From a virus: a DNA stretch of 35,750 bases. The stretch lies in IMG/VR virus record IMGVR_UViG_3300021226_000033, positions 1-35,750 of that record; one strand, 5' to 3'. The position numbers and the translations under genes were made by a program. Numbering within the stretch: the stretch's first letter is position 1; the number at the start of each line of letters is the position of its first letter. Of this stretch, positions 3,142-33,400 are shown in pieces. The notes under the pieces were generated by a model. That model was not told the DNA's origin, ran no database searches, and saw nothing but the letters and a program-made list of their open reading frames with translations.

Positions 3142-3170
3142 TTGACAACACAAAAGATGGGATGCATACT
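3142..3170 (+). promoter_or_regulatory. Predicted sigma70-type promoter of the first HNH gene
   Basis: TTGACA at 3142-3147 is a perfect -35 box. After a 17-base spacer comes CATACT at 3165-3170, which matches four of six -10 positions. It lies between the capsid terminator and the endonuclease gene. The expected transcription start is at or next to the ATG at 3178, which would make the message leaderless or nearly so. This is a sequence prediction only. Confidence 0.55.
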
Positions 3171-3177
3171 CCATCTT

Positions 3178-3969
3178 ATGAAGAAACTGACCTTTGAAGA
3201 GTACGTTGCTAAGGCATCTATTGCTCATGCTGGGGCGTATACGTATCCAGAACAGCACTACGGTGGCAAACGTGCAATGCTGACAATCATTTGCAGATTT
3301 CACGGTGCGTTTTTGCAAAACGCGGGAAATCATGTGTACCGTAGAGCGGGGTGTCCGTTATGCGGGGCAAAAGCACAAGTAGCGAAACGCATCACGGGAC
3401 TTAAAGAGTTCATTCGCAGGGGTAAATTGTTATACCCCGGCAAAGATTTATACGACATGGCAGTTTACAAAAACACGATGACGACGCTAATTCTTTCGTG
3501 TGCTGTTCATGGCCAATACAGTATTCGCCCACACAATTACTTGAGAATGGGGCAGAGGTGTACCAGTTGTACAAAAGAGTACGGGTATACGCCCAATGCT
3601 CACAAACAGCGTGTAAACCAAAGAGAACTGGATCGCAGAAAAACGGACCCAATTTTTGCGCTGTGTAAGCGTTTACGAAAACGTCTGCGGGAATCCCTTG
3701 CTAAACATCACATCCCAAAAGACGCAACGCTGCGACAAGCGTTAGGATGCTCATATGAAGACCTACGGGACCATATAGAGAAAGGTTTTTCAGTTGGCAT
3801 GGGCTGGCACAACATGGATAAATGGCACATAGACCATCTAACACCGCTTGCTACCGCACAAACACGGGAAGATGTTTTGCGGTTAAGTCACTACACTAAC
3901 CTGCAGCCTCTTTGGGCGCAAGATAATTTGCGTAAAAACGCTAGACATGATTGGCATGATGGTGTATAA
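3178..3969 (+). CDS. HNH homing-type endonuclease with two DUF723-like zinc-finger repeats
   Basis: This 263-residue protein has two similar N-terminal units of the kind called DUF723. Each has a 'C..HG.F/Y' strand followed by a CPLC- or CTSC-like knuckle: Cys39, Cys59 and Cys62, then Cys108, Cys128 and Cys131. They probably bind zinc and DNA. The C-terminal HNH nuclease core has WHIDHLTPL (HIDH at 217-220) and LSHYTNLQPLWAQDN (Asn241, Asn250). Such free-standing HNH genes usually spread by cutting phage genomes that lack them. It sits between the capsid terminator and the next structural gene with its own predicted promoter, and looks more AT-rich than its neighbours. An upstream TTG at 3142 would add 12 residues but overlaps the -35 box, so I prefer the ATG at 3178. 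Confidence 0.85.
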   Translation: MKKLTFEEYVAKASIAHAGAYTYPEQHYGGKRAMLTIICRFHGAFLQNAGNHVYRRAGCPLCGAKAQVAKRITGLKEFIRRGKLLYPGKDLYDMAVYKNTMTTLILSCAVHGQYSIRPHNYLRMGQRCTSCTKEYGYTPNAHKQRVNQRELDRRKTDPIFALCKRLRKRLRESLAKHHIPKDATLRQALGCSYEDLRDHIEKGFSVGMGWHNMDKWHIDHLTPLATAQTREDVLRLSHYTNLQPLWAQDNLRKNARHDWHDGV

Positions 3970-6774: not shown

Positions 6775-7467
6775 ATGGCAACTTCCGGCACCTCCGTATT
6801 CAACCTTGACCTAGCAGAGTTGGTCGAGGAAGCCTTTGAGCGCTGCGGAGCGGAGCTGCGGACTGGTTATGACCTTAAGACTGCACGCCGCAGCCTGAAC
6901 CTACTCTTCGCAGACTGGGCAAACCGGGGTATAAATCTCTGGACGGTGGAGCAGGGCTCCATCAATCTTGTCCAAGGCACGGCTACCTACAACCTGCCCG
7001 ACAACACGGTTGACCTGCTTGAGCACGTTATTCGCACTGGCGCTGGTAATGTTTCCACCCAAGCCGACCTGACCATCACGCGGATCAGCGTTTCAACGTA
7101 CTCGTCGATTCCTAACAAGCTGACGCAGGCTAGGCCAATTCAGGTTTACATCAACCGCCAAGCGCCGACTCCGACTGTTACCGTTTGGCCTACGCCCGAT
7201 GGCTCCATCCCCTACCAGTTCATTTACTGGCGGCTTCGGCGGATTCAGGATGCCGGTGATGGCTCGAACACGATGGATGTGCCGTTCCGGTTTATCCCCT
7301 GCATGGTGTCTGGGCTCGCGTACTACTTGGCGCTGAAGTTGCCCGGTGCTATGGAGCGGCTTGGTGTCCTCAAGGATCAGTACGACATCGATTGGGACTT
7401 TGCCTCGACGGAAGATCGTGAGAAGGCAGCAGTACGTTTCGTCCCACGCCAACAATTTTTGGGCTGA
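6775..7467 (+). CDS. Head-to-tail adaptor (P22 gp4-like tail accessory factor family)
   Basis: This 230-residue protein has the family pattern: an N-terminal helix pair with LAELVEEAFERCG, the segment ARRSLNLLFADWANRGINLW, and a beta region starting QGTATYNLPDNTVDLL. Then come IQVYINRQAPTPTVTVWPTP and a C-terminal helical part with GLAYYLALKLPGA. Proteins of this kind (P22 gp4, and adaptor proteins of SU10-like podoviruses) bind under the portal, close the filled head and connect it to the tail nozzle. The length suits the family. The second HNH gene begins one base after its stop. Confidence 0.8.
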   Translation: MATSGTSVFNLDLAELVEEAFERCGAELRTGYDLKTARRSLNLLFADWANRGINLWTVEQGSINLVQGTATYNLPDNTVDLLEHVIRTGAGNVSTQADLTITRISVSTYSSIPNKLTQARPIQVYINRQAPTPTVTVWPTPDGSIPYQFIYWRLRRIQDAGDGSNTMDVPFRFIPCMVSGLAYYLALKLPGAMERLGVLKDQYDIDWDFASTEDREKAAVRFVPRQQFLG

Positions 7468-7468
7468 T

Positions 7469-8041
7469 ATGCCCTGCAAAGACTTGGAAGCACGTAAAGC
7501 GTATGCAAAAGCGTACGCGGCAAAACATCTCTTAGAGCTGAATGTTTACCGCAAAGAATGGAAAGCGGCAAATAAAGATAAAGTGGTTGGCTACAATAAA
7601 AAGTACAAAGACAAAAAAGGTGAGTCTTTGGTTGTAGCGCAAAGAGAACGCATCGCTAAATGGCGAGAACACAATATAGAAAAAGTGCGTAAAAGCAACA
7701 GGGAACGAGCCGCACAAAAACGAGCGGATCATCCGGAGAAAATTAAAGCAGCTAAGAAGCAATACGCACAGCGTAAAAAAGATGTAGTTAATGCAGCAGT
7801 TGCACGGCGTAAGGCCATGAAGTTGCAGCGAACCCCACAGTGGCTAACTGAAGACGATCACTGGTTGATAGAGCAAGCGTATGATATAGCTGCTACAAGA
7901 ACTAAGCTGTTTGGTTTTGCTTGGCACGTAGACCATATTATTCCTTTGCTTGGTAAAAATGTATCTGGCTTACACGTGCCAAAAAACTTGCAAGTTATTC
8001 CCGGCGTAGAAAACTTACGCAAGGGGAACCGACATGGCTAA
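7469..8041 (+). CDS. HNH homing-type endonuclease, Lys-rich helical N-terminus
   Basis: This 190-residue protein has about 130 N-terminal residues that are very rich in Lys, Arg, Ala and Glu, in short helical repeats (for example YNKKYKDKKGE, REHNIEKVRKSNRERAAQK). These probably contact DNA. A C-terminal HNH core follows: WHVDHIIPL (HVDH at 153-156), then HVPKNLQVIPGVENLRKGN (Asn173, Asn182). It is unrelated in its N-terminus to the HNH genes at 3178 and 21372. It fits exactly between two structural genes, starting one base after the upstream stop. Its 3' end overlaps the next gene by eight bases and carries that gene's ribosome binding site (AAGGGGA). I chose the ATG at 7469 because an earlier start would overlap the adaptor gene by over 100 bases. 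Confidence 0.83.
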   Translation: MPCKDLEARKAYAKAYAAKHLLELNVYRKEWKAANKDKVVGYNKKYKDKKGESLVVAQRERIAKWREHNIEKVRKSNRERAAQKRADHPEKIKAAKKQYAQRKKDVVNAAVARRKAMKLQRTPQWLTEDDHWLIEQAYDIAATRTKLFGFAWHVDHIIPLLGKNVSGLHVPKNLQVIPGVENLRKGNRHG

Positions 8042-8426
8042 TCGATTTACCGCTGGCAAAAGGGCCATAAGCGAGTGCGATAGGTGCGGGTTTAGGTTTA
8101 AGCTCAAAGAGTTGCAGCATGAGGTAATTAAAACTAAGCGTGTTGCTATAAAATCATGCCCAGAATGCTGGTCACAAGATCATCCGCAGCTACAACTTGG
8201 GATGCAGCCAATTGCCGATCCGCAGGCTGTGCGCGATCCTCGCCCTGACTTCAACGCTTACTACGCTTCAGGTGTAACTGCTGACGATTCCATCGGTGGC
8301 GGCAGTCGGGTATTTCAGTGGGGCTGGGCACCGGTAGGCGGGGCTAGTAGTTTTGATAACGGGCTGACACCGAATGACTTGGTGGCAGTAGGATATGTTG
8401 GTACAGTTGCGGTAACTACCGCGTAA
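8034..8426 (+). CDS. Zinc-ribbon phage structural protein
   Basis: This 130-residue protein has an N-terminal zinc-ribbon: Cys15-x-x-Cys18 (ECDRCGFRF) and Cys42-Pro-x-Cys45 (CPECW). A conserved-looking stretch ends QDHPQLQLGMQPIADPQAVR, with DPRPD just after it. The C-terminal half is Gly/Ser/Val-rich. I recognise the pattern from many tailed phages, where it lies among head-tail connection genes, but no function is established to my knowledge. It starts inside the end of the HNH gene, whose last codons provide the ribosome binding site. Confidence 0.78.
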   Translation: MANRFTAGKRAISECDRCGFRFKLKELQHEVIKTKRVAIKSCPECWSQDHPQLQLGMQPIADPQAVRDPRPDFNAYYASGVTADDSIGGGSRVFQWGWAPVGGASSFDNGLTPNDLVAVGYVGTVAVTTA

Positions 8427-8812: not shown

Positions 8813-9463
8813 GTGGATTACCAAGAACTTCGCACGGCGGTATCAGACTACGTAGAGAATACGTTTTCTGATACTGATTTTGCAACGATGACAAAGCTTG
8901 CCGAACAGAAAATTTACAACTCTGTTCAGTTGCCCGCGCTCCGCAAGAACGTGACGGGCACGTTGACTTCGGGTAATCCGTATCTTGCTGCGCCGACTGA
9001 CTTCCTGTCGGTGTTTAGCCTTGCTGTGTTTAGTGGGTCGGGTCCGTATACCTATCTGCTGAACAAGGATGTGAACTTCATCCGCGAGGCATACCCAACG
9101 CCGTCAAGCACTGGGACGCCGAAGTACTACGCCCTGTTTGGCCCAGCAAGCAATGATCCTAATGAGTTGACGTTGATCCTTGGCCCAACGCCGAGCGCGT
9201 CGATTTCTACTGAGCTTCATTACTTCTACTACCCGCAGAGCATTGTCGATGCAGGTACGTCATGGCTTGGGGATAACTTTGACTCCGCGCTGTTTAACGC
9301 CGTGATGGTCGAGGCTGCACGCTTCATGAAAGCGGAGCAGGACATCGTTGCTATGTACAATGCTGAGTATCAGCAGTCGCTTACTTTGCTCAAGAATCTT
9401 GGCGACGGAAAACAAAGACAAGACGCCTATCGTAGCGGGCAGCTACGCACTAAAGTTATTTGA
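8813..9463 (+). CDS. Second adaptor / head-completion protein (SU10 adaptor-like)
   Basis: This 216-residue protein starts at GTG. The N-terminal helical part DYQELRTAVSDYVENTF and DFATMTKLAEQKIYNSVQLP is followed by a beta segment with NPYLAAPTDFLSVFSLAVF. Next comes GTPKYYALFG, and then a C-terminal helix bundle, AARFMKAEQDIVAMYNAEYQ. This layout (sensor-like N-terminal helices, PxDFL, a predicted insert, a C-terminal helix) matches connector/adaptor proteins under the portal in podoviruses such as SU10. Together with the gp4-like gene at 6775 it would form the neck. Confidence 0.72.
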   Translation: MDYQELRTAVSDYVENTFSDTDFATMTKLAEQKIYNSVQLPALRKNVTGTLTSGNPYLAAPTDFLSVFSLAVFSGSGPYTYLLNKDVNFIREAYPTPSSTGTPKYYALFGPASNDPNELTLILGPTPSASISTELHYFYYPQSIVDAGTSWLGDNFDSALFNAVMVEAARFMKAEQDIVAMYNAEYQQSLTLLKNLGDGKQRQDAYRSGQLRTKVI

Positions 9464-11876: not shown

Positions 11877-12032
11877 ATGGCAATCGGCGATACTGGACAA
11901 GTGGTCACGCTTTACGGAGCGACGTACCTCGTGTTGGGTTCTGCTGGCGGCACGCTGGTGTACGCTATTAAGCAAGGTGAGCCTATGCCCGCCACTTGCT
12001 ACATCATCGATTTGGCTGAGGTTCCCGCGTGA
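11877..12032 (+). CDS. Small hypothetical protein (51 aa)
   Basis: This 51-residue frame starts MAIGDTGQVVTLYGATYLVL and ends in IIDLAEVPA. It begins one base after the previous stop, and its own stop overlaps the GTG start of the glycosyltransferase. The predicted structure is a few beta strands. I do not recognise it. Tight spacing on both sides and the absence of a better start support translation. Confidence 0.6.
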   Translation: MAIGDTGQVVTLYGATYLVLGSAGGTLVYAIKQGEPMPATCYIIDLAEVPA

Positions 12033-12763
12033 TTGAACCTCAAATCGTCACCACTTTTGACGCCGGGTATCACAACAAGAACCTTGGCCTTGCCGTTAAA
12101 CGCCTGGAAAAGACAGCGGCATACAAAGACCTTTCAACGATTATTGTGATCCCCGCGCTGGGGACGCTGCCAACCAAAGTGGCGGCCAGTTTCATGAACC
12201 TGTACAGCCCGCCGAACCAGAAGCGGGTTGTGCTTTGGGCGTTGGGGCAAGAGGTAGGTGAGGCGTACAGCCGGTGCATCGAGATGATTCTTGAGCACCC
12301 CGAACTCTCCAAGTTCAAGTACATCTTGACAATGGAGCATGACAACCTGCCTCCCGCCGATGGTCACCTTAGACTCTTGCAAGCTGCTGAAGCTCACCCT
12401 GAATACTCATGTATCGGTGGTCTTTACTGGACCAAGGGCGAGGGCGGGCAACCGCAGATTTGGGGCAATCCCAAGGAGCCTCTGAACTTCAAGCCACTGC
12501 CGCCTGACCCCAATGGGGGGCTGGTCGAGTGTGTCGGCACGGGCATGGGCTTCAATCTGTTTCGCCTTGAGATGTTCAAGGACAAGAAGCTGCGCAAGCC
12601 GTGGTTCAAGACCCAAGCCGACTCGGGCGGGGTTGCCACTCAAGACCTATATTTTTGGGGCAATGCCTTCAAGCACGGACACAAAGCCGCGATTGACTGC
12701 TCCGTGAAGGTGGGCCACTACGATTACGAAGGCAAGTTTGGACAGCCCGACACCATATGGTAA
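12029..12763 (+). CDS. Glycosyltransferase-like protein (GT-A fold)
   Basis: This 244-residue protein starts at GTG, overlapping the previous stop by four bases. A beta-strand STIIVIPALG (residues 36-45) is followed by NQKRVVLWALGQEVGEAYSR. The key block is KYILTMEHDNLPP (97-109), whose E-H-D-N matches the DxD-type nucleotide-sugar and metal site of GT-A enzymes. Downstream are CVGTGMGFNLFRLEMF (168-183), typical of the acceptor-side region, and TQDLYFW (204-210), with D206 a candidate catalytic residue. It would move a sugar from a nucleotide donor to an unknown acceptor in the host cytoplasm. It overlaps the methyltransferase gene by seven bases, so the two probably act together. The acceptor could be a tail protein, DNA or a host surface precursor. 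Confidence 0.78.
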   Translation: MIEPQIVTTFDAGYHNKNLGLAVKRLEKTAAYKDLSTIIVIPALGTLPTKVAASFMNLYSPPNQKRVVLWALGQEVGEAYSRCIEMILEHPELSKFKYILTMEHDNLPPADGHLRLLQAAEAHPEYSCIGGLYWTKGEGGQPQIWGNPKEPLNFKPLPPDPNGGLVECVGTGMGFNLFRLEMFKDKKLRKPWFKTQADSGGVATQDLYFWGNAFKHGHKAAIDCSVKVGHYDYEGKFGQPDTIW

Positions 12764-13287
12764 CCAAGACAATCAAGCTCGACCTTGCCTGCGGTGACCG
12801 CAGGACAGAAGGATTTATCGGCGTCGATAAGTACAAGACCCCCAGCGTGGATAAGGTTGTTGACCTTATGAAACCCAACTGGCCTTGGAAAGACAACTCC
12901 GTGGATGAGATCGTCTGCAATCATTTCTTTGAGCATATCCCCGGGCTCCAGCGCCCGATGTTCATGGAAGAGATTTACAGGATTCTCAAGAAGGGATCGA
13001 AGCTGACCATCGTTGTGCCGTTCGGCGGGTCGGTGCGGGCGGCGCAGGACTTTACTCATGCTTGGCCCCCGGTCTACGCGGAATCATTTCTTTACTTCAA
13101 CAAGAAATGGCGCGAAGATAACAAGCTGACGCATGGCCTGTACGACATCAAGTGCGACTTCGACTTTGGGTATGGCTTTGCCCTTAGTGAAGAGTGGGGC
13201 CTGCGGGCTCAGGAAGTACAATCGTTTGCGCTCAAGCATTACACCAACGTAGCCTCTGACCTCCATGTGACGCTCACCAAACGATAG
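12757..13287 (+). CDS. Class I SAM-dependent methyltransferase
   Basis: This 176-residue protein has a Rossmann-type methyltransferase core. Motif I is LDLACGD at 9-15 (the SAM-binding loop), and the acidic end of strand 2 is IGVDKY with D24. VDEIVCNHFFEHI at 49-61 is the motif often seen as 'D.i...h.lEH' in the Methyltransf_11 group. IYRILKKGSKLTIVVPFG at 73-90 is the following helix and strand. The C-terminal part (FDFGYGFALSEEW) probably forms the substrate side. It is translationally coupled to the glycosyltransferase, so sugar O-methylation or modification of the same target is a reasonable inference; the substrate is unknown. Confidence 0.82.
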   Translation: MVTKTIKLDLACGDRRTEGFIGVDKYKTPSVDKVVDLMKPNWPWKDNSVDEIVCNHFFEHIPGLQRPMFMEEIYRILKKGSKLTIVVPFGGSVRAAQDFTHAWPPVYAESFLYFNKKWREDNKLTHGLYDIKCDFDFGYGFALSEEWGLRAQEVQSFALKHYTNVASDLHVTLTKR

Positions 13288-13296
13288 GGCAGAATT

Positions 13297-15531
13297 GTGG
13301 CCGCCGCATTCCAACTAGACGCATTCCAGAACGATGCGTTTGAAGTAGCCAGCGGCGGTGGGGCGCAGAATCTTTCCCCTGCGCTGTATACAAACACAAA
13401 CACGTTCTACACGCAGACGGTAACTGCGACGTACACGCTCACGCCAGCGCTGTACACAAATACAAATACCTTCTACACGCAGACCGTTACTGCGTCCTAC
13501 GCGCTGACTCCAGCGCTGTATACCAATTCCAACACGTTCTACACCCCCACGATTACACAGGGTGGGGCAGCGCAGAATCTTTCCCCTGCGCTCTACACAA
13601 ACGACAACACCTTCTACACGCAGACCGTTGCTGCGTCCTATGCGCTTACTCCTGCGCTATACACGAACACCAATACTTTCTACACCCAGACCGTAACGTC
13701 AAGCTACACGCTGACACCGGCTCTGTACACGAACTCAAACACCTTCTACACCCAGACTGTAAGCAGCAGCTACACCCTTACGCCTGCTCTTTACACGAAC
13801 AGCAACACGTTCTACACGCAAGCAGTAAGTGCAAGCAATACGCTCACGCCTGCGCTGTATACGAACAGCAACACCTTCTATACCCAGACCGTAAGCGCTA
13901 GCTACGCGCTGACTCCGGCGCTCTATACCAACACAAACACGTTCTACAGCCCGACAGTTTCGCTGGCTGCGTACATTCTTAGCCCTGCTCTTTATACAAA
14001 TACAAACGTCTTCTATTCCCCGACGGTTACGTCTGGCGGGGCGGTGATACTGCCCGATCTTTATACAAACACCAATACCTTCTACACCCCGACAATTACG
14101 GTTGGTGCAGTTAATCTCAGCCCAGCTCTCTATACCAACAGCAACACCTTCTACGCCCAGACGGTTTCGGCGAGCTATACCCTCGCTCCTAACCTTTATA
14201 CCAATACCAACGTCTTTTACAGCCCAACGATTACCGTTGGCGGCGTAGTCATTGCGCCTGACCTTTACACCAACACCAACACCTTTTACACCCAGACCGT
14301 TACGCCGGGGGCAGTTAACCTCAGCCCTGCGCCGTACACGAACGACAACGCTTTCTACGCGCAGACTGTCACGGCGAGTTACACGCTTGCGCCTGACCTT
14401 TATACAAATACCAATACCTTCTTTACCGCAGACATTGCCAATGTCTTCGTAATACTTCCCGATCTCTACACCAACACCAATGCGTTCTACACGCAGACTG
14501 TTACAACCAGCGCAACAATTGCGCCTGCGCTCTATACCAACACCAACGAGTTCTATTCGCCGACTGTTACTGGTGCGTACAACCTTGCGCCTGCGCTTTA
14601 TACCAACACCAACAGCTTCTACTCGCCCGCAGTAACGGCGACCTATGAGCTGATCTGCGAAGACTACGTTGACCCGGGCTATGTCACTCCGGGATACGTT
14701 GAGTTCTATGCCTTCAATGTAAACGTCTTCTACACCCCGATTGTTGGGTCGAGCAACGCCTTCACAGTTACTGGAGTCCAAGGCACAGGGCAAGTTGGCT
14801 CAGTCACTGTTGCGCTTCAGCTTGATGTTCCGGTCACTGGCGTTCAAGCTACCGGCTTTGTTGGGGATGTTAGCGTCCAGCTAACGCTAGTGGTCCCGGT
14901 TACTGGAGTCCAAGGCACAGGCCAGACTGGTAATGTTTCCATCACGGCGGATGCCAATACGGCTGTTACCGGCGTTCAAGCTACCGGCGCTGTCGGCTCG
15001 GTCACGGTTGAGTTGCGTCAGGATGTGCCCGTTACCGGTGTTGTCGGCACAGGGCAGATTGGTAATGTTTCCATCTTTGAGGGCTTCGGAGTCATCGTCC
15101 CGGTCACGGGCGTGCAGGCCACAGGCGCAGTTGGAACGGTTGAAGTTACTGGAACAGCCAACGTATACCCATTGGGAGTACAGGGCGCGGGCCAAATCGG
15201 CTCGGTCACGATTGAGCTTCTCCAGCTTGTTCAGGTCACCGGGGTTCAGGCTCAGGGCTTTGTCGGGACAGTATCCATCACTGGCGGCGCTACCATAATT
15301 CCCACTGGCGTTCAAGCGCTGGGGCTGGTAGGATACGTAAATGTCTGGGGGCTTGTGCCTGATATCCAGACGCCCGATTGGGCTGATGTTGTAGACGCAC
15401 AAAGTGCTGCTTGGAGTGTTATCAGTAACGCGCAGTCATCTAGCTGGGCAACAGTTACGAATACACAAACATCTGGGTGGACGGACATTACCGACGCGCA
15501 GACGCCAAATTGGCAAGAGATTGTTGTTTAA
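13297..15531 (+). CDS. Three-domain tandem-repeat protein, probable tail fibre or adhesin-like appendage
   Basis: This 744-residue protein starts at GTG. After a short head (FQLDAFQNDAFEV) it is almost wholly repeats. Residues 25-450 hold 19 copies of about 22 residues with the core LYTNTNTFY.. followed by a T/S/V strand. Residues 451-490 are a linker with a degenerate copy (FNVNVFYTPIV). Residues 491-689 hold nine copies of a VTGVQ.TG..G.V.V unit, about 22 residues each. Residues 691-744 hold five 11-residue units with one Trp each. The first two regions look like stacked beta structure, suggesting a long fibre. It lies between the modification pair and the tail fibre gene. There is no signal peptide or sortase motif, so it is likely a virion protein. 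Codons differ between copies although residues are conserved. Confidence 0.82.
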   Translation: MAAAFQLDAFQNDAFEVASGGGAQNLSPALYTNTNTFYTQTVTATYTLTPALYTNTNTFYTQTVTASYALTPALYTNSNTFYTPTITQGGAAQNLSPALYTNDNTFYTQTVAASYALTPALYTNTNTFYTQTVTSSYTLTPALYTNSNTFYTQTVSSSYTLTPALYTNSNTFYTQAVSASNTLTPALYTNSNTFYTQTVSASYALTPALYTNTNTFYSPTVSLAAYILSPALYTNTNVFYSPTVTSGGAVILPDLYTNTNTFYTPTITVGAVNLSPALYTNSNTFYAQTVSASYTLAPNLYTNTNVFYSPTITVGGVVIAPDLYTNTNTFYTQTVTPGAVNLSPAPYTNDNAFYAQTVTASYTLAPDLYTNTNTFFTADIANVFVILPDLYTNTNAFYTQTVTTSATIAPALYTNTNEFYSPTVTGAYNLAPALYTNTNSFYSPAVTATYELICEDYVDPGYVTPGYVEFYAFNVNVFYTPIVGSSNAFTVTGVQGTGQVGSVTVALQLDVPVTGVQATGFVGDVSVQLTLVVPVTGVQGTGQTGNVSITADANTAVTGVQATGAVGSVTVELRQDVPVTGVVGTGQIGNVSIFEGFGVIVPVTGVQATGAVGTVEVTGTANVYPLGVQGAGQIGSVTIELLQLVQVTGVQAQGFVGTVSITGGATIIPTGVQALGLVGYVNVWGLVPDIQTPDWADVVDAQSAAWSVISNAQSSSWATVTNTQTSGWTDITDAQTPNWQEIVV
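13369..14646 (+). repeat. Nineteen ~22-residue YTNxN.FY protein repeats
   Basis: The units are 63-75 bases long. Each encodes a hydrophobic lead such as TLTPALYTN or ILPDLYTN, then [TSD]N.F[YF], then a T/S/V-rich strand of variable length. DNA copies differ mostly at synonymous positions. Confidence 0.9.
14767..15363 (+). repeat. Nine ~22-residue VTGVQ protein repeats with alternating types
   Basis: The units alternate between VQGTGQ-like and VQATG[FA]-like cores over much of the array, giving a super-period of about 44 residues. Each ends in a G.V.V strand. Confidence 0.88.
15367..15528 (+). repeat. Five 11-residue Trp repeats
   Basis: The units read QTPDWADVVDA, QSAAWSVISNA, QSSSWATVTNT, QTSGWTDITDA and QTPNWQEIVV. 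They place one Trp at a fixed position at the very C-terminus of the repeat protein. Confidence 0.88.
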
Positions 15532-15542
15532 GGGACTGAGAA

Positions 15543-18098
15543 ATGCCTTCTTCATACACCACCAGCCTACGCCTGACCCTCCCTGCAACGGGCGAGCTTT
15601 CGGGCACTTGGGGCACCACGGTAAACACGGGCATTACTGAGCTGACCGACGCAGCAATTGCTGGTTATGTTTCCGTTGCAATGACGGATGCAGACTACAC
15701 TTTGACGGTCGCCAACGGAGCTACTGACCAAGCTCGGCGCATGATGCTCAACATGACGGGTACGCTGACTGCGGCTCGGAACGTCATCTGCCCTACGGCC
15801 AGCAAGCTCTACATTATCAAGAACGCCACCACGGGCGGGTTCGCTATCACGCTCAAAACCTCGGGCGGGACGGGCATCTCCATCCCTAACGGCAGTTCCA
15901 TGCTGCTGATGTGCAACGGCACGAATGTCGTTGATGCCGTTACTAACTTTAGCTCCCTGACGCTGGGCTCCCCACTCCTTCCCGCCTCTGGCGGTACGGG
16001 CATTACCTCTCTCGGTACTGATGTCGCCACCTTCCTCGGCACACCCTCGTCTGCAAATCTTGCTGCTGCTGTCACCGACGAGACAGGTTCTGGCGCTCTG
16101 GTGTTCGGCACCTCCCCGACCCTCGCAAGCCCCACCATCACCGGCACCGGCACTGCTGCCTTTGGGAATTTGTCCTACACCGGCACCCTCACCGGCGGCA
16201 CGGGCGTGGTCGCGCTGGGAACGAATCAGTTCTACAAGGATGCGTCGGGCAACGTGGGTATTGGGACGGTTACTCCCAACTTCAAAATTTCTGTAAACAA
16301 TAACGCATCTACACCAAGCGCAAGTGGTTTTTCCGCCAATGAAGTAGCACTTCAAATAGTAGGTAAAGATGGTAACAATACTCGCGTGCTGTATCAGTCA
16401 TACGGCGGGGTAAATAACTTTCTTAATGCTTATGCTTATGGTGGAACACTCGCTGCTCCCAGTGCCACAGTTAGCGGGACAAATATTTTTGGTATCAGTG
16501 CAGGCGGGTACGGCGCTACTGCTTCTGTAGCTGGGCTTGCAAGAATTAGTATTAATGCCGAAAGCACGTTTACAGATACAAGCGCACCGACATATATTAA
16601 TTTTCAAACCACCCCTGCTGGGTCGATAACCGCATCAGACCGGATGCGTCTCGACTCCTCCGGCAATCTGGGTATTGGGGGGGCTCCCTCATACCAGCTA
16701 TATGTCAAGGGCACGGGACAAGACACCGCCAACCTGACAGACGCAGGGAATAAGGCCGGATCGCTGTATTTACAAGCAACGGGCGTCGGCGTTGGTTCAG
16801 GTGGCGCGGTCCTGTTTGGTACAACTTTTGGGAATTCAACTCCTTTTGCAGCAATCAAGGGCCTTGTCACTGACGGCAGCACCAACACCAAAGGAGACTT
16901 AGCGTTTTCCATGCGGACGGCGGTTGGGGATACAGCCTTGTCGGAAAAGATGCGCCTCGACGCCGCAGGCAACCTCGGCTTAGGGGTGGTGCCGAGTGCG
17001 TGGGATTCCGGCTACAAAGCCATGCAGGTCGGCAGTGCTGCGTTGTTTTCCAGTGCCACTGGTTCTGGCGGGTACTTGCTCGGGAACGCGTATTTCGGCA
17101 TCAGCGGCTACAAATATTACAACGCGGCAGCCGCTACGCGCTATGAAATGGTTTCCGGGGCGCACACTTGGTCAACAGCCCCCTCCGGCACCGCAGGCAA
17201 CGCGATCAGTTTCACGCAGGCGATGACGCTGGATGCGAGTGGGAATCTCGGGATTGGCACGGCTTCGCCGGGGGTTCGTCTTTCCGTAGATTCAGGCGCT
17301 ACTGCAACCAACACAAACTTTAACAGCACAAATGCTAGTGGCGTTAGTGTCCGTTTCCAGAACAGCAGCACATCCATCGGTGACTTGGGCTCTGGCGCTA
17401 CTTGCTTTAGTGGCGGCACTGCTGGAGATTTTGGCCTTACGTCTCGCGCCGGAAATTTGGTTTTGGGAACGGGTAGCACCGAACGCGCCCGCATCACCAG
17501 CGGGGGGAATTTGGGGGTGGGGACCACTGATGAATATGGGCGCGTAAACATTCAACGGTTTACCGGAGCGCCACAGTCCACTCTTTCAATTGGTGACTTT
17601 GCGGCTGCTGCGAACGACGTTGGCATTTATCTGCGAACCACTTCGACTGCCGGAATCAGCTGGGCAGGCGGGGCATTGGCGTTTTATGGAGGTGGTCCCG
17701 GCCTCACCGAACGCGCCCGCATCACCAGCGGGGGGGATTTGCTGGTGGGGATGACCGCCACGACGGGTAGCCTTACAAACGCTACAAAACTCGTTCCCGG
17801 CGTTGTTACGTCTTACAACGGAACAGTTTCTGCGGCAACTGGGTCCGCAACCACCATGTTTGTTGCCCCGACGACAGCGGCAAATACATATCTGGTGACG
17901 GTCAATATCGTGAGTACAGACGGGGGGGCATCCTACACGGTGCTAGGACTTCTACGTTGTGGTTCCATTACCACTGCGTATTCAAGCATAGTTACCGCAA
18001 CAAATCTAACTGTGTCATTAAGTGGCACCAATCTACAAGTCACTCAAATTAGCGGTGTTTCCCAGACCGTACAGTGGTCACTCTTGAGACTTGTGTAG
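15543..18098 (+). CDS. Tail fibre protein
   Basis: This 851-residue protein has an N-terminal module of a common phage fibre type: SYTTSLRLTLPATGELSGTW, then VNTGITELTDAAIAGYVSV, and IIKNATTGGFAITLKT. After a Gly/Thr-rich neck come at least six fibre motifs of the form 'L/I-x-x-x-G-x-L-G-I/V-G' (for example RLDSSGNLGIGG, TLDASGNLGIGT, RITSGGNLGVGT), typical of trimeric tail fibres. The C-terminus is a beta domain (AANTYLVTVNIVSTDGGASY to LLRLV). The self-cleaving S74 chaperone often found at this end is absent; a possible remnant lies in another frame just downstream. It probably binds the host receptor. Confidence 0.85.
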   Translation: MPSSYTTSLRLTLPATGELSGTWGTTVNTGITELTDAAIAGYVSVAMTDADYTLTVANGATDQARRMMLNMTGTLTAARNVICPTASKLYIIKNATTGGFAITLKTSGGTGISIPNGSSMLLMCNGTNVVDAVTNFSSLTLGSPLLPASGGTGITSLGTDVATFLGTPSSANLAAAVTDETGSGALVFGTSPTLASPTITGTGTAAFGNLSYTGTLTGGTGVVALGTNQFYKDASGNVGIGTVTPNFKISVNNNASTPSASGFSANEVALQIVGKDGNNTRVLYQSYGGVNNFLNAYAYGGTLAAPSATVSGTNIFGISAGGYGATASVAGLARISINAESTFTDTSAPTYINFQTTPAGSITASDRMRLDSSGNLGIGGAPSYQLYVKGTGQDTANLTDAGNKAGSLYLQATGVGVGSGGAVLFGTTFGNSTPFAAIKGLVTDGSTNTKGDLAFSMRTAVGDTALSEKMRLDAAGNLGLGVVPSAWDSGYKAMQVGSAALFSSATGSGGYLLGNAYFGISGYKYYNAAAATRYEMVSGAHTWSTAPSGTAGNAISFTQAMTLDASGNLGIGTASPGVRLSVDSGATATNTNFNSTNASGVSVRFQNSSTSIGDLGSGATCFSGGTAGDFGLTSRAGNLVLGTGSTERARITSGGNLGVGTTDEYGRVNIQRFTGAPQSTLSIGDFAAAANDVGIYLRTTSTAGISWAGGALAFYGGGPGLTERARITSGGDLLVGMTATTGSLTNATKLVPGVVTSYNGTVSAATGSATTMFVAPTTAANTYLVTVNIVSTDGGASYTVLGLLRCGSITTAYSSIVTATNLTVSLSGTNLQVTQISGVSQTVQWSLLRLV
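17477..17741 (+). repeat. Pair of 37-base near-identical direct repeats in the fibre gene
   Basis: Positions 17477-17513 and 17705-17741 are identical except for one base. They are in the same frame and encode TERARITSGG followed by N/D-L. The 228-base spacing is an in-frame distance, so recombination between them would delete 76 residues cleanly. Confidence 0.85.
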
Positions 18099-19442: not shown

Positions 19443-21314
19443 ATGCCGCTGAAAAAATTGATGTTTAAACCGGGGCTCGACCGCGAGACAACCCGGTACA
19501 CCAGTGAAGGCGGCTGGTATGAGTGCGACAAAGTACGCTTCCGGTCTGGTAGCCCGGAGAAAATCGGCGGCTGGGAGCAAGTCTCCAACGTAAACACCTT
19601 TCAAGGAACCTGCCGCTCTCTGTGGCCTTGGTCTACGTTTGCCTACGCAGCCTATCTTGGCGTGGGCACAAACCTCAAGTACTACATCATGTACGGCGGG
19701 GCGTACAACGACATCACGCCTATTCGCGGTACAGCAACGCTGACCAACCCCTTCACTGCAACCAACGGTTCCGCAATCATTGCCGTAGCTGATGTTGCTC
19801 ACGGCTGTGAAGACGGGGATTTCGTCACTTTCTCTGGTGCTACCGGTCTGGGTGGAAACATTACCGCTACGGTCCTGAACGCCGAGTACCAAGTCACCGT
19901 CATTAACGACGATTCCTACACGATCACAGCTTCTGCTACGGCCAATGCAACGGACGCTGCGGGCTCCCCGGGCGGTGGTACTGTCACTGCCGCATACCAG
20001 CTAAATGTAGGCAACGCCATTCAAGTGCCTCTCTCCGGTTGGGGCGGTGGCGCATGGGGGCTTGGGCCTTGGGGTGTTGGCTCTACGACAATCGAGACTA
20101 TCCGCATCTGGAACAACCAGAACTTCGGCGAGGATTTGGTCTTTGGCCCGAAGGGTGGCGGTATCTATTACTGGGACGTAGCCTCTGGGCTTAACGCTCG
20201 GGGTATTGCGGTGACTTCGCTCCCCGGAGCGTCTGACGTTCCTATCTACCAGAACATTCTTGTTGTCTCGGATACCTCCCGCTTTGTGCTGGCGATGGGG
20301 ACGAACGATTACGGCAGCATAGAGATTGACCCCATGCTGATTCGGTGGTCGGATCAAGAAAGCGTTGTGAGCTGGACGCCTACGGCTACCAACCAAGCGG
20401 GCAGCATCCGGCTGTCGCACGGCTCAGAGATTCTCGGCTACGCTCAGGTGCGGCAGGAAATTCTTGTCTGGACTGACACCTCGCTCTACTCTCTCCAATA
20501 CCTCGGCCCGCCTGTTGTGTGGGGCTCACAGCTTCTTGCAGATAACGTCACTATCCTGAATGACCGTGCTATGGCAACGGCTGCGGGGGTTACTTACTGG
20601 ATGGGCGAAGAAAAGTTCTACGTCTATGATGGGCGAGTTCAAACGCTCCCCTGCACCTTGCGGCAATACGTATTTGGGGACTTCAACCTTGATCAAGTTG
20701 ATCAAGTCTTTGCTTCGACCGTTGAGCGTTTCAACGAGGTCTGGTGGTTTTATCCGTCATCAGGCAGCACAACTTGCGATAGGTACGTTGTTTATAACTA
20801 CCTTGAGAAGATTTGGTACTACGGCAACATGACCCGTACCTCGTGGATTGACGCAAGCGTTGTTAGCAATTATCCGATCAGTGCCTATAACAATCAGCTT
20901 CTGTACCAAGAGGTCGGGGTTGATGACGGTGCCAGCGGGGTTGGCGTCCCTATCGAAGCGTACATCACAACGTCTGAGTTCGACATTGAGGACGGGCATA
21001 ACTTCGGGTTCGTCTGGCGTGTGCTGCCTGACATTACCTTCCGGGGCTCTACCGCCGCTGCTCCGCAGGCGCTCTTCACGCTGCTGCCCTTGCAGAACTC
21101 AGGCTCCGGGTACAACAACCCTCAGTCTGTTGCCGGGTCTAGCAGTGGCATGGTGACTCGCAGCGCTACCGTCCCAGTGGAGCAATTCACGGGGCAAGTA
21201 AACATCCGGGTTCGTGGTCGGCAGATGGCTATGCGCGTGGAGTCTACAGAGCTGGGCGTTGCGTGGCAGCTAGGCGCACCACGAATTGATATCAAGCCTG
21301 ATGGACGTAGATAG
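19443..21314 (+). CDS. Tail nozzle / packaged-DNA stabilisation protein (P22 gp10-like)
   Basis: This 623-residue protein has the family start: FKPGLDRETTRYTSEGGWYE, CDKVRFRSGSPEKIGGWEQ. A beta-rich body with repeated blade-like strands follows, for example ILVWTDTSLYSLQYLG, MGEEKFYVYDGRVQTLP, and EVWWFYPSSGSTTCDRYVVY. The C-terminus has VEQFTGQVNIRVRGRQMAMR. Such proteins form the hexameric nozzle below the adaptor and keep packaged DNA inside. An insertion around residues 95-185, rich in Gly, Thr and Ala, may be a surface domain (FTATNGSAIIAVADVAHGCE). The third HNH gene follows directly. Confidence 0.85.
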   Translation: MPLKKLMFKPGLDRETTRYTSEGGWYECDKVRFRSGSPEKIGGWEQVSNVNTFQGTCRSLWPWSTFAYAAYLGVGTNLKYYIMYGGAYNDITPIRGTATLTNPFTATNGSAIIAVADVAHGCEDGDFVTFSGATGLGGNITATVLNAEYQVTVINDDSYTITASATANATDAAGSPGGGTVTAAYQLNVGNAIQVPLSGWGGGAWGLGPWGVGSTTIETIRIWNNQNFGEDLVFGPKGGGIYYWDVASGLNARGIAVTSLPGASDVPIYQNILVVSDTSRFVLAMGTNDYGSIEIDPMLIRWSDQESVVSWTPTATNQAGSIRLSHGSEILGYAQVRQEILVWTDTSLYSLQYLGPPVVWGSQLLADNVTILNDRAMATAAGVTYWMGEEKFYVYDGRVQTLPCTLRQYVFGDFNLDQVDQVFASTVERFNEVWWFYPSSGSTTCDRYVVYNYLEKIWYYGNMTRTSWIDASVVSNYPISAYNNQLLYQEVGVDDGASGVGVPIEAYITTSEFDIEDGHNFGFVWRVLPDITFRGSTAAAPQALFTLLPLQNSGSGYNNPQSVAGSSSGMVTRSATVPVEQFTGQVNIRVRGRQMAMRVESTELGVAWQLGAPRIDIKPDGRR

Positions 21315-21315
21315 A

Positions 21316-21344
21316 TGTACAAGGTACACAGCAAGATGTACAAT
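21316..21344 (+). promoter_or_regulatory. Predicted sigma70-type promoter of the third HNH gene
   Basis: TGTACA at 21316-21321 (four of six -35 positions) is separated by 17 bases from TACAAT at 21339-21344 (five of six -10 positions). It lies right after the nozzle stop codon and 28 bases before the chosen start. As at 3142, a TG directly abuts the -10 hexamer. Prediction only. Confidence 0.5.
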
Positions 21345-21371
21345 ACAGACTTCTTCATTTTGGAGTCTGTC

Positions 21372-22007
21372 ATGGGACGTTTTGTTGATCGAGTTGGGCA
21401 AGTGTTTGGGCGTTTGCGGGTGCTTGATCGCGCCGGAACAGACCAAAACAAAAAAGTTGTTTGGCGTTGTGCGTGTGAATGCGGCAATGAAGTTGTGGTC
21501 CCATCTGGTAGCCTTGCAAATGGCAACACTATGTCATGCGGTTGTTATTTTTTAGAGCGCGTTACAAAGCATGGCGGAACTAACAAAGGCTCTTACAACA
21601 CTTGGCGCGCCATGATGCGACGTTGTTATAAGACTCAAGATAAAGACTATTTGCGCTATGGTGGCAAAGGCGTTACTGTGGATGAGCGTTGGCATGATTA
21701 CGCCAGCTTTGCCGCCGATATGGGAGAGCCAAGCGGCGAAGAGACACTTGACCGTATTAATACATACGGAAATTATGAGCCAAATAACTGTCGCTGGGCC
21801 TCCCTACAAATCCAAGCGCGGAATATTCGCACACCAAAATCCAATAAAGCCGGTGTAACTGGTGTTATTATGGTTTATGCTGGCAAATGGATGGCATCAA
21901 TAACAGCAAATAGAAAAAGATACTACGCCCCAGTTCGTGGTACTCTTTCTGAAGCGGCCTCCGACCGAAAAGAACTTGAGCTTTTGCACTGGGGATCGGT
22001 GCAATAA
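21372..22007 (+). CDS. HNH-type homing endonuclease with zinc ribbon and AP2-like domain
   Basis: This 211-residue protein has an N-terminal MGRFVDRVGQVFGRLRVLDR with a Cys-rich knuckle (Cys33, Cys35, Cys37, Cys56, Cys58). A central nuclease-like segment follows: SYNTWRAMMRRCYKTQD, RYGGKGVTV, and ETLDRINTYGNYEPNNCRWA (residues 124-143), whose D-R-I-N and G-N-Y-x-P-x-N-C-R-W are the hallmark of this HNH variant. A C-terminal AP2-like DNA-binding segment (GVTGVIMVYAGKWMASITAN) completes it. The ATG at 21372 has a GGAG site six bases upstream; an earlier ATG at 21315 would overlap the predicted promoter. It joins the next gene by TAATG and differs in architecture from the other two HNH genes. 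Confidence 0.85.
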   Translation: MGRFVDRVGQVFGRLRVLDRAGTDQNKKVVWRCACECGNEVVVPSGSLANGNTMSCGCYFLERVTKHGGTNKGSYNTWRAMMRRCYKTQDKDYLRYGGKGVTVDERWHDYASFAADMGEPSGEETLDRINTYGNYEPNNCRWASLQIQARNIRTPKSNKAGVTGVIMVYAGKWMASITANRKRYYAPVRGTLSEAASDRKELELLHWGSVQ

Positions 22008-30464: not shown

Positions 30465-33400
30465 ATGGCACTACCTGCTGGATTTGTTCTTGAAGAGCCC
30501 TCTACGGGCATCAGTCTTCCACCAGGGTTTGAGCTTGAAGAAGCTCCAAAGCCGCCTGAGCAACAGAGCGCCTTCCGTCAAGTTGCTGACGTACCGCTAG
30601 GCGTGGCCAAGGGCGCAGTCCAAGGCGTCCGAATGCTGGCTGATGTATTCGGCGCTGGGTCCGAAACATCTAACACCATCAGGTCAGCAGAGACTTATCT
30701 TGCTGGGTTGATGTCAGCTCAAGCCAAGAATGATCAGCAAGAAATTGCACGGATCATGAAAGAGGCTGAGGACAAGGGTGTTCTTGATCAAGTCAAGGCT
30801 GGTATCAAGGCGTTCACCATTGCGCCTGTTGACACCTTGTCTAGCGCCTTGGGCACTGCTGCGCCTGTAGTTGCTGCAAGTCTTGGGGCTACGGTACTTG
30901 GTGCTCCCGCTGTTGTAGGTACTGGTGTCGGCGCATTGCTTGGCGCTGGCATGGGTGCTGGTGTAGTCAAGGGCTCTATCTACGAAGAGACAAAGAAAGC
31001 TCTCATTGAAGCTGGGGCCGCTGAGCCGGAGGCAGAACAAAAGGCTCAACTTGCTCAGTCATATGGCGGCAAGAACCTTGACCAGATTCTTTTGGGTACG
31101 GCCCTTGGTGGGGTTGCTGCTGTTGGTCCGCTGGAAAAAGGTGCCGCTGGTATCCTTGCCCGCAACATTCTTGGCAAGGCCGGAGTTGAAGAGGCTGCAG
31201 AAACAGCAGGCGAACAAGCTGTTAAGGGCGCTCTGCGTAGACGGGCCGAGGCTGGATTGCTTGAAGCAGTTCCCGAAGCAGTGCAGGCCGGTCAAGAACA
31301 AGTTGCCCAAAACATTGCCCTTCAACGGGAGGGCTTTGATGTACCTACATTCCGGGGCGTTGCAAGCGCGTCCACCCTTGAAGCAATTGCTGGTGGCGGA
31401 CTGGGTGCAACCGTTGGTGGTGGCGCTCCTGAAGTAGCCAAGCCTGAAGTGGAAACAATTCCACCTGTTGCGCCAGAACCAGTTGCTACTAAAGCTGCTG
31501 CGCCAGCGGTGGTAACAATTCCACCTGAGCCGCCAGAAGTTCCTGCAATTACCTACAGTCCCGATCCGCTGATTTCGTTCCCTGACGGGACGGTTGCTCG
31601 GAAGGGAGAGTACGAAACTTTTATTGCCAGCCTTCCTGAAGAGCAGCAAGTAGAAGCCCGCGCAAAGATGCTTGGCATGGGGCAAGAGGCTGTTGAGATT
31701 AAGCCTGAGATGCTTATTAGCCTTGGCATCAGGCCAAGGGCTCCAATCGTTCAGCGTCTTGCTGGATTAGAAATAAACGACCCGAAGGTTGTTGAAGAGT
31801 TGACTGAGTTTGCAAAACAGCCTTACGCCCCCCCTCAAACAAGAGGAAACATCTTTGGCTTCCTTGCGACCATTAAGCCAAAGGAAGTTGAGGAAGCGCC
31901 GCCCGCTCAGATTGAACAGCCGACTGTTGCAGAGCCAATCGTTCAAGAAGCTCCCGCCATACAGCCGACTGTAGAGGTTCCACAACCTCCGGTTAGCGTT
32001 GAGCCTAGCGTTGCGGAAGATATTGAGCCCGCAGTCGCGCCAGCAATTGAGCCCGCTGAAATTTCTTCTGCTGCGCCTGCTGTAGAAACGCCTCCCGCCA
32101 TACAAGCGCCTAGCATCATTACCGCACAAGTGCTGACCGACCTTGGCGTAAAGCCTGGGGCAGCGATTGTGAAGCGGTTAGAAGGCAAGCCGATTGACGA
32201 TCCTGAAGTTGTAACTCAGCTAGAGAGCTACGCCAAACGATACGCGCCCGCCGAAATCAAACCGGCAATTACTAATTTTGTTCAAACCATTGCAGCGCCC
32301 AAGGCTGAGCCAGTTGCTCCACCCCCGTCGCAAAAACAGGCTCCTCAGAGCGGCCTATCTGGCACGGCGGTGGGTGGGGCTCCTGTTGTTTCTACTCCAG
32401 AAGCTGCCGCGCCTGCGCCGAAACCGCAACCTTCAACCGGAGATGTTGCAAGTAAGAAGTTTCCCAAGACGGTGATGGGTTCAACCCTTCTCGCCGCTGT
32501 TAATAGAAGGCTTGGCGGTCTTGATCCATCATTGATCAGCGAGTTTTCCACTCGCTTTGAGACAGCTCGGATCGGACGCAATGGCAAACCAATTGTTCAG
32601 TATAGAAATCCGCTTACACCGGATGGCAAGCTATTTAGAACTGGCGGTACGCTCGACTTCCAACTGATTGCTGAAGCACTTGAGGATGAAGGTTACTTGC
32701 CATCCGGCTCTGTTGCCGCTGACTATAAAGAAGCTGGCGAACGCGCTAAACAACTTATCAATGCCGCCCTTAACAGGCAGGAAGTTGAGAAAGAAGAAGA
32801 TAGCGCAGAGCAGATGCTTGCCCGCAGGGCTGAAATGGAGCAGATGGACGCCGAGGAATTGGCTGCTGCTCAAGAAGCTCAAGATGAAGGCCTATATCCA
32901 GGGCTGGACGAAGAGTCAATTATTGAAGCGGAACGTGAGCGCGAAGCAATCATTGCCGAATCAGACATTGATATGACCGTGCTTACGGATGACGATATCA
33001 ATTTCTTCGGCGAAATTGCCATTCAATCCGATGAGGAATACGCAGAAAGCCTGCGGCGTGGCTTGGGCCTTAACGATGAGGAAGTTGCAAATGAAATCAA
33101 AGCTCGCGCAGCGGCAAGAAGCGCTGAAGAAGATGGCAGGGCTCGGGCCAGAGAAGCTAAAGAAGCTGGTGCGGCTAGAGAAGCTGCGCCGGGGATTGCC
33201 AGCTACACCCCTGAAGAAGTAACACGAAAGCAAGAAGAACAAGAAAAGGCTTCTGCCGCCGAGAAAAAATCAAAGGCTGCTGAACAAGAGCGTCTTCGCA
33301 AAGAACAGCAATCCAAGGAAGAAAAGGTCCGCGCAGATGAGTCCGTGAAGGGCTTTGAGCTTGGCAAAACCGCTGAAGAACAGATGACCGGTATGGGTGA

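Follow-up and report, generated by a model that had tools for sequence, protein, structure and literature searches.

A candidate phage tail appendage with YTN, TGV and tryptophan repeats in a common 22-residue frame

The repeat gene and its surroundings

The window analysed here, an IMG/VR virus record of 35750 bases, carries a gene for a long repeat protein inside an SU10-like tail cluster with the order adaptor, repeat gene, fibre, lysis and nozzle. The features on which the analysis relies are listed below by their positions in the window.

8813..9463, + strand: SU10-type adaptor (PF24175, E 3.2e-22), which marks a short-tailed tail cluster
12029..13287, + strand: glycosyltransferase-like and methyltransferase-like genes
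13297..15531, + strand: repeat protein gene, GTG start, 744 aa
13297..13356, + strand: N-terminal peptide (V/M)AAAFQLDAFQNDAFEVASG with aromatics F5, F10 and F15 spaced 5,5; proposed dock; patterned in 63/110 distinct relatives
13363..14644, + strand: 19 YTN units, consensus xLxPxLYTNTNTFYxPTVTxx; predicted beta-solenoid
14653..14751, + strand: non-repeat element ICEDYVDPGYVTPGYVEFY with C454, then a degenerate YTN unit AFNVNVFYTPIV; conserved in L002-L006
14767..15342, + strand: nine TGV units, consensus VTGVxATGxVGxVTVxGxANV; predicted beta-solenoid
15343..15528, + strand: C-terminal Trp module VWGLVPDIQTPDW...DAQTPNWQEIVV, three 22-residue units; proposed coupling module
15543..18098, + strand: tail fibre gene, N-terminal domain SLRLxLPATGExSGTWGxxVN; proposed partner of the Trp module
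19443-21314: nozzle protein gene (profile 9nwi, E 9e-31; 8zkk 'nozzle gp16', E 1.6e-15)
20037..20075, + strand: nozzle loop GWGGGAWGLGPWG, residues 199-211, with W200, W205 and W210 spaced 5,5

The first-pass annotation had described a 744-residue protein with 19 YTN and nine TGV units, and both counts were confirmed on the open reading frame at 13297-15531. The YTN motif, YTNxNxF[YF], recurs at a spacing of 22-25 residues, mostly 22, and the TGV units follow each other at 22 or 24 residues; neither motif occurred in 1000 shuffles of the protein. The tryptophans at 684, 695, 706, 717, 728 and 739 lie exactly 11 residues apart, so that the Trp array is real and the five Trp units of that description correspond to the five intervals between six tryptophans. 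The arrays dominate the chain, as had also been stated, with two further stretches outside them, the N-terminal peptide AAAFQLDAFQNDAFE and a conserved element CEDYVDPGYVTPGYVEF around C454, the only cysteine of the protein. The composition is marked by the absence of lysine, a single arginine, 31 aspartates plus glutamates and 18.7% threonine. At the DNA level, TRF resolved the YTN part into 66- and 204-207-base arrays. The unit-to-unit identity of 63% for protein and 64% for DNA, together with 1240 synonymous codon differences summed across the pairs of units, argues that the array is not a recent duplication. An antisense open reading frame of 352 codons (13735-14793, - strand) opposite the YTN array is probably a shadow of repeat codon usage.

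The major capsid protein encoded in the window shares 73% identity with those of the Planktothrix/Synechococcus phages Pag-Yong1 and MinM2, and 63-64% with those of DSL-LC04 and the pelagiphages HTVC023P and HTVC027P. The window also encodes two phrog_644 proteins, an endolysin and a holin. In a synteny survey of about 150 viral contigs, a phrog_644 protein was found upstream of the repeat gene at 123 of 124 loci, the adaptor upstream at 92 of 105, and the fibre no more than 300 nt downstream at 90 of 104, which supports the earlier placement of the gene right before a conventional tail fibre gene. Three endonuclease genes (HNH or endonuclease VII-like; 3142-3969, 7346-8041 and 21315-22007) lie inside the structural cluster, and an open frame (30465-35750) runs off the window end after at least 1762 codons; the matching part of MinM2 contains a very long ORF.

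Searches of Pfam, NCBIfam and PDB sequences with the repeat protein and its profiles returned no match, and a literature search for the motifs as text found none. The Pfam matches of some TGV relatives (e.g. to Spt5 CTD) look like low-complexity chance and were rejected. PHROG matches were weak, the one to phrog_8501, 'minor tail protein', having an E-value of 4.3e-4 and aligning residues 213-285 to positions 43-115 of the 133-position model. The combination of arrays is thus that of no named fibre or adhesin, as had been suggested, although it is not unique: all three arrays occur in the same order in ten distinct sequences, the window protein included. Most likely, the repeat protein is a tail appendage of an aquatic, SU10-like podovirus and belongs to no described family.

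A common 22-residue frame and the predicted fold

Each of the three repeat systems had been assigned a period of its own. We found instead a single 22-residue frame running through the YTN, TGV and Trp regions. Among 91 distinct Trp tails, two tryptophans were present in 4, three in 2, four in 42, five in 1 and six in 42, giving an even number in 88 of the 91, and the spacing was 11 residues in 336 of 348 intervals, with kinship of the sequences inflating all frame counts. Because odd counts were nearly absent and the residues flanking odd and even tryptophans differed, the Trp unit comprises 22 residues with two tryptophans. The last YTN motif was separated from the first TGV motif by 22 or 24 residues in aligned register, and the last TGV motif from the first tryptophan always by 12 residues (junction distances for L007, L010 and L019 were counted by eye, as the script took a neighbouring match). 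The degenerate YTN unit behind the C454 element holds the 22-residue phase up to the first TGV unit. Comparison of the YTN and TGV profiles placed its best register at that of the junction, with a score for YTN-TGV homology no better than that of shuffled columns (p 0.14).

Structure prediction, proposed with the first-pass annotation as a check, was carried out on monomers and gave all-beta, solenoid-like models of limited confidence. AlphaFold2 modelling of the whole protein yielded short strands in a 22-residue rhythm at a mean pLDDT of 57.7; residues 477-744, modelled with 56 aligned sequences, reached a mean pLDDT of 69.7, with most TGV units forming coils of three strands and the Trp tail left without predicted structure. 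About three strands in most 22-aa coils were common to both models. The nearest structural neighbours were HxuA, a right-handed beta-solenoid (Z 14.2, rmsd 3.1 over 212 residues), and SufD, also a right-handed solenoid (Z 14.0, rmsd 3.2 over 187 residues), whereas the left-handed helices of LpxD and GlmU, which aligned only at an rmsd of about 12 compared to about 3 for the right-handed ones, were rejected as models; a Foldseek search against the PDB gave nothing significant (E above 0.1). The repeat arrays are predicted, with low confidence, to form a beta-solenoid. Alternatively, they may form a trimeric beta shaft, the models covering monomers only. Together with the synteny, the all-beta models support the earlier view of a shaft- or fibre-like tail protein.

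Modular relatives and a shared aromatic pattern

A first scan of IMG/VR viral contigs returned 79 relatives; a second, run with a C-terminal profile, gave at least 584, and 80 of these, selected for a Trp or TGV motif, were kept. Isolate and assembled phage records gave matches only in Pam2 and DSL-LC04, BFVD contained likely relatives of at most 30% identity as uncharacterised proteins from uncultured phages of the Caudovirales, and bacterial genome contigs, scanned twice for a clue to the host, yielded no relative. The relatives started with an AFQ-, GWG-, FxPF- or LLL-type N-terminus or with a 250-aa domain, contained YTN repeats, TGV repeats, both, or unrelated repeats (e.g. L063, L066), and carried or lacked the Trp tail, indicating that N-terminal peptide, repeat body and Trp tail recombine in many combinations. 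The shortest scale of this architecture is represented by L064, a 106-aa relative in which both ends are kept with one TGV unit. Homologues of the glycosyltransferase and methyltransferase genes were present only at loci with an AFQ-start repeat protein (10 loci, including L079 and L080 with an unrelated body). The DNA identity between L079 and L084, about 80% up to the AFQ peptide, dropped to about 51% immediately after it, which looks like a recombination junction. In L078, L079 and L080, the AFQ peptide is fused to another repeat family, GxLVGPGSxxxGxA, of about 21-22 residues.

The C-terminal module was associated with the following gene. Among distinct cases with enough following sequence, the fibre N-terminal domain stood directly next for 81 of the 91 that had a Trp tail and for 1 of the 23 that had none; a hand count of the first scan alone gave 20 of 26 and 0 of 21, respectively. 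The association is seen with TGV, YTN and mixed bodies as well as with unrelated ones. On a tree of a neighbouring gene, the Trp and fibre traits change 4-5 times only, too few for a phylogenetically controlled test, and the second scan, which contributes to the larger counts, was selected for the Trp or TGV motif. The Trp module also ranks among the most conserved parts of the protein. The C-terminus is indeed Trp-rich, as the description 'Trp-rich tip' had it, while its role as a receptor-binding tip is doubtful: the conservation of the module, its occurrence on several unrelated bodies and its co-occurrence with the fibre gene directly downstream are more in keeping with a coupling module than with a host-specific tip.

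At the opposite end of the protein, three aromatics exactly 5,5 apart were found in 63 of 110 distinct N-termini, compared to 2.8 expected by shuffling, and the patterned sequences fall into at least three dissimilar styles (AFQxDAFQNDAF, GWGRGTWGSGTW and FGFSPFAGAPF). Relatives with LLL-type or 250-aa N-domains have no aromatic peptide, and some chains carry several triplets, as in the DSL-LC04 protein and in HTVC027P gp68, which has three. The same spacing recurs in the internal loop of the nozzle, GWGxGxWGxGxWG, in which G199, W200, G201 and G211 were invariant and W205 and W210 nearly invariant in 20 aligned sequences. Among ORFs of at least 100 codons, a strict version of the pattern, an aromatic followed by glycine three times at intervals of five, was detected in 27 of the 52 that encode nozzle proteins and in 49 of the 152 for repeat proteins. 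Of the 4910 other ORFs two had it, those for the repeat-bearing tail proteins HTVC027P gp68 and CRP-902 gp53. A distant nozzle homologue in L077 (around 8001-8066) carries AFQLDAFQNDAFQ, an AFQ version at another place.

In phage SU10, the dock loop of the nozzle presents Trp839, 847 and 857 in pseudo-threefold symmetry, and each of these tryptophans contacts one chain of the short tail fibre (PMC9509320). The SU10 gp17 loop resembles F5/F10/F15 of the repeat protein and W200/W205/W210 of the window nozzle in carrying three aromatics on one chain, but differs in their spacing, 8 and 10 instead of 5,5; in a weak alignment it falls near residue 480 of the window nozzle rather than at 199-211. 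The published dock loop of Mu gp48 (PMC11915804) lacks the 5,5 pattern and was discarded as a second example. Based on the aromatic pattern common to N-termini and nozzle loops and on analogy with the three-Trp loop of SU10, we propose that the N-terminal peptide may act as a docking peptide. A broader generalisation, which we regard as rather unlikely, is that the nozzle loops and the ends of modular 22-residue-coil cable proteins in aquatic short-tailed phages share a linear code, three aromatics at five-residue intervals, by which trimeric fibres would be docked with one repeat per subunit. The cables would then be exchangeable tethers that vary in length between 106 and about 900 residues and in some cases bear several docks on one chain.

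Possible roles and comparison with known phages

As a tentative reading, which we favour at somewhat less than even confidence, the repeat protein would be carried as a tail appendage on the virion of an SU10-like short-tailed phage, its gene occupying the slot of the SU10 proximal long tail fibre. Most of the chain would form a single beta shaft with 22 residues per coil, its surface formed first by YTN, then by TGV and finally by Trp coils. In analogy to the dock loop of the SU10 nozzle, the three-aromatic peptide would be a linear dock in which every chain of a trimeric partner meets one aromatic, and the Trp module would couple to the fibre of the adjoining gene at that fibre's N-terminal domain. 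The repeat protein would then link this fibre to the tail at a distance set by the repeat number.

The position among fibre genes, the all-beta repeats and an N-terminus that is exchangeable between bodies, as in fibre anchors, would also be expected of a conventional homotrimeric tail fibre anchored at its N-terminus to the adaptor or nozzle, with a trimeric beta shaft, a Trp trimerisation cap or receptor-binding tip, and the adjoining fibre as a separate appendage. This alternative is possible, yet we consider it the less probable one, because a C-terminal module conserved across different bodies, and presumably hosts, is unlike a host-specific tip and because such a trimer would present nine aromatics compared to the one-per-chain dock in SU10. 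An accessory protein on the surface of tail or head, decorative or adhesive, that binds host glycans or debris through a Thr/Asn/Tyr-rich or Trp surface and is dispensable for holding the fibre, appears improbable: the strict position before the fibre gene speaks against it, and the almost shaftless L064 keeps both ends, so that the ends rather than the repeats seem essential, even though the Lys-free, Thr-rich composition and the restriction of the glycosyltransferase-methyltransferase pair, which may glycosylate the repeat protein, to AFQ-type relatives would suit such a function. Finally, it is highly improbable that the 11-residue Trp repeats belong to an ejected internal protein or to one of tape-measure type, and kinship with tape measure proteins was rejected, since the tblastn hits of the Trp module to 11-periodic tryptophans of tape measure proteins were insignificant (E 0.1-0.6), the SU10-type adaptor and nozzle denote a short-tailed phage, and most Trp units contain proline, with no predicted helix.

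With at least 584 relatives in a single scan, the family ranks among the more common tail proteins that lack an explanation in environmental virus sequences, and it has no Pfam, NCBIfam or structural entry despite this abundance. If the docking reading is true, a short pattern would mark fibre-holding tail proteins of podoviruses from the sea and from freshwater, pelagiphage relatives among them, and the exchange of modules would show how such phages swap appendages.

Individual parts of the protein are recognisable in known systems. About 73 residues of the YTN array match phrog_8501 (E 4e-4; 4e-9 in Pam2_68), a match that spans only a few repeat units of the whole window protein. Pam2_68 of Pseudanabaena phage Pam2 (UQS94948.1), encoded in the tail gene region, shares the YTN-type array (35% identity over 48%) without the TGV or Trp module, and an annotated distal tail protein nearby points to a different tail type. 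The hypothetical protein WJZ48131.1 of DSL-LC04, a phage known from a metagenome assembly, shares the TGV repeats, the Trp tail and aromatic triplets in a 381-codon open frame, and has the adaptor upstream and the fibre downstream as in the window, but has no YTN array. In cultured Roseobacter phage CRP-902, gp53 (L166, 17961-18887) combines TGV-like repeats and a GWGNNAWGNGTWG end, both fused to a domain that resembles, by eye, the protein at 8034 of the window.

In Pelagibacter phage HTVC027P, the hypothetical protein gp68 (QGZ17849.1) occupies the same slot, with a phrog_644 protein before it and a fibre after it that has the same N-terminal domain as the window fibre. It carries three aromatic triplets, GTWNTGSWGQNQW, GWGRQEWGLQGWG and GWGRLQWGINDWG, and a C-terminal W...GW, whereas its body repeats have diverged past blast detection, YTN units are missing and the tail has only two tryptophans. 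SU10 gp12 and the repeat protein match by blastp at chance level only (E 0.49). The gene order of SU10, adaptor, long fibre gp12 and gp13, holin/lysin, gp16 and nozzle gp17, is paralleled in the window, and gp12 lies between adaptor and distal fibre in the very slot of the repeat gene.
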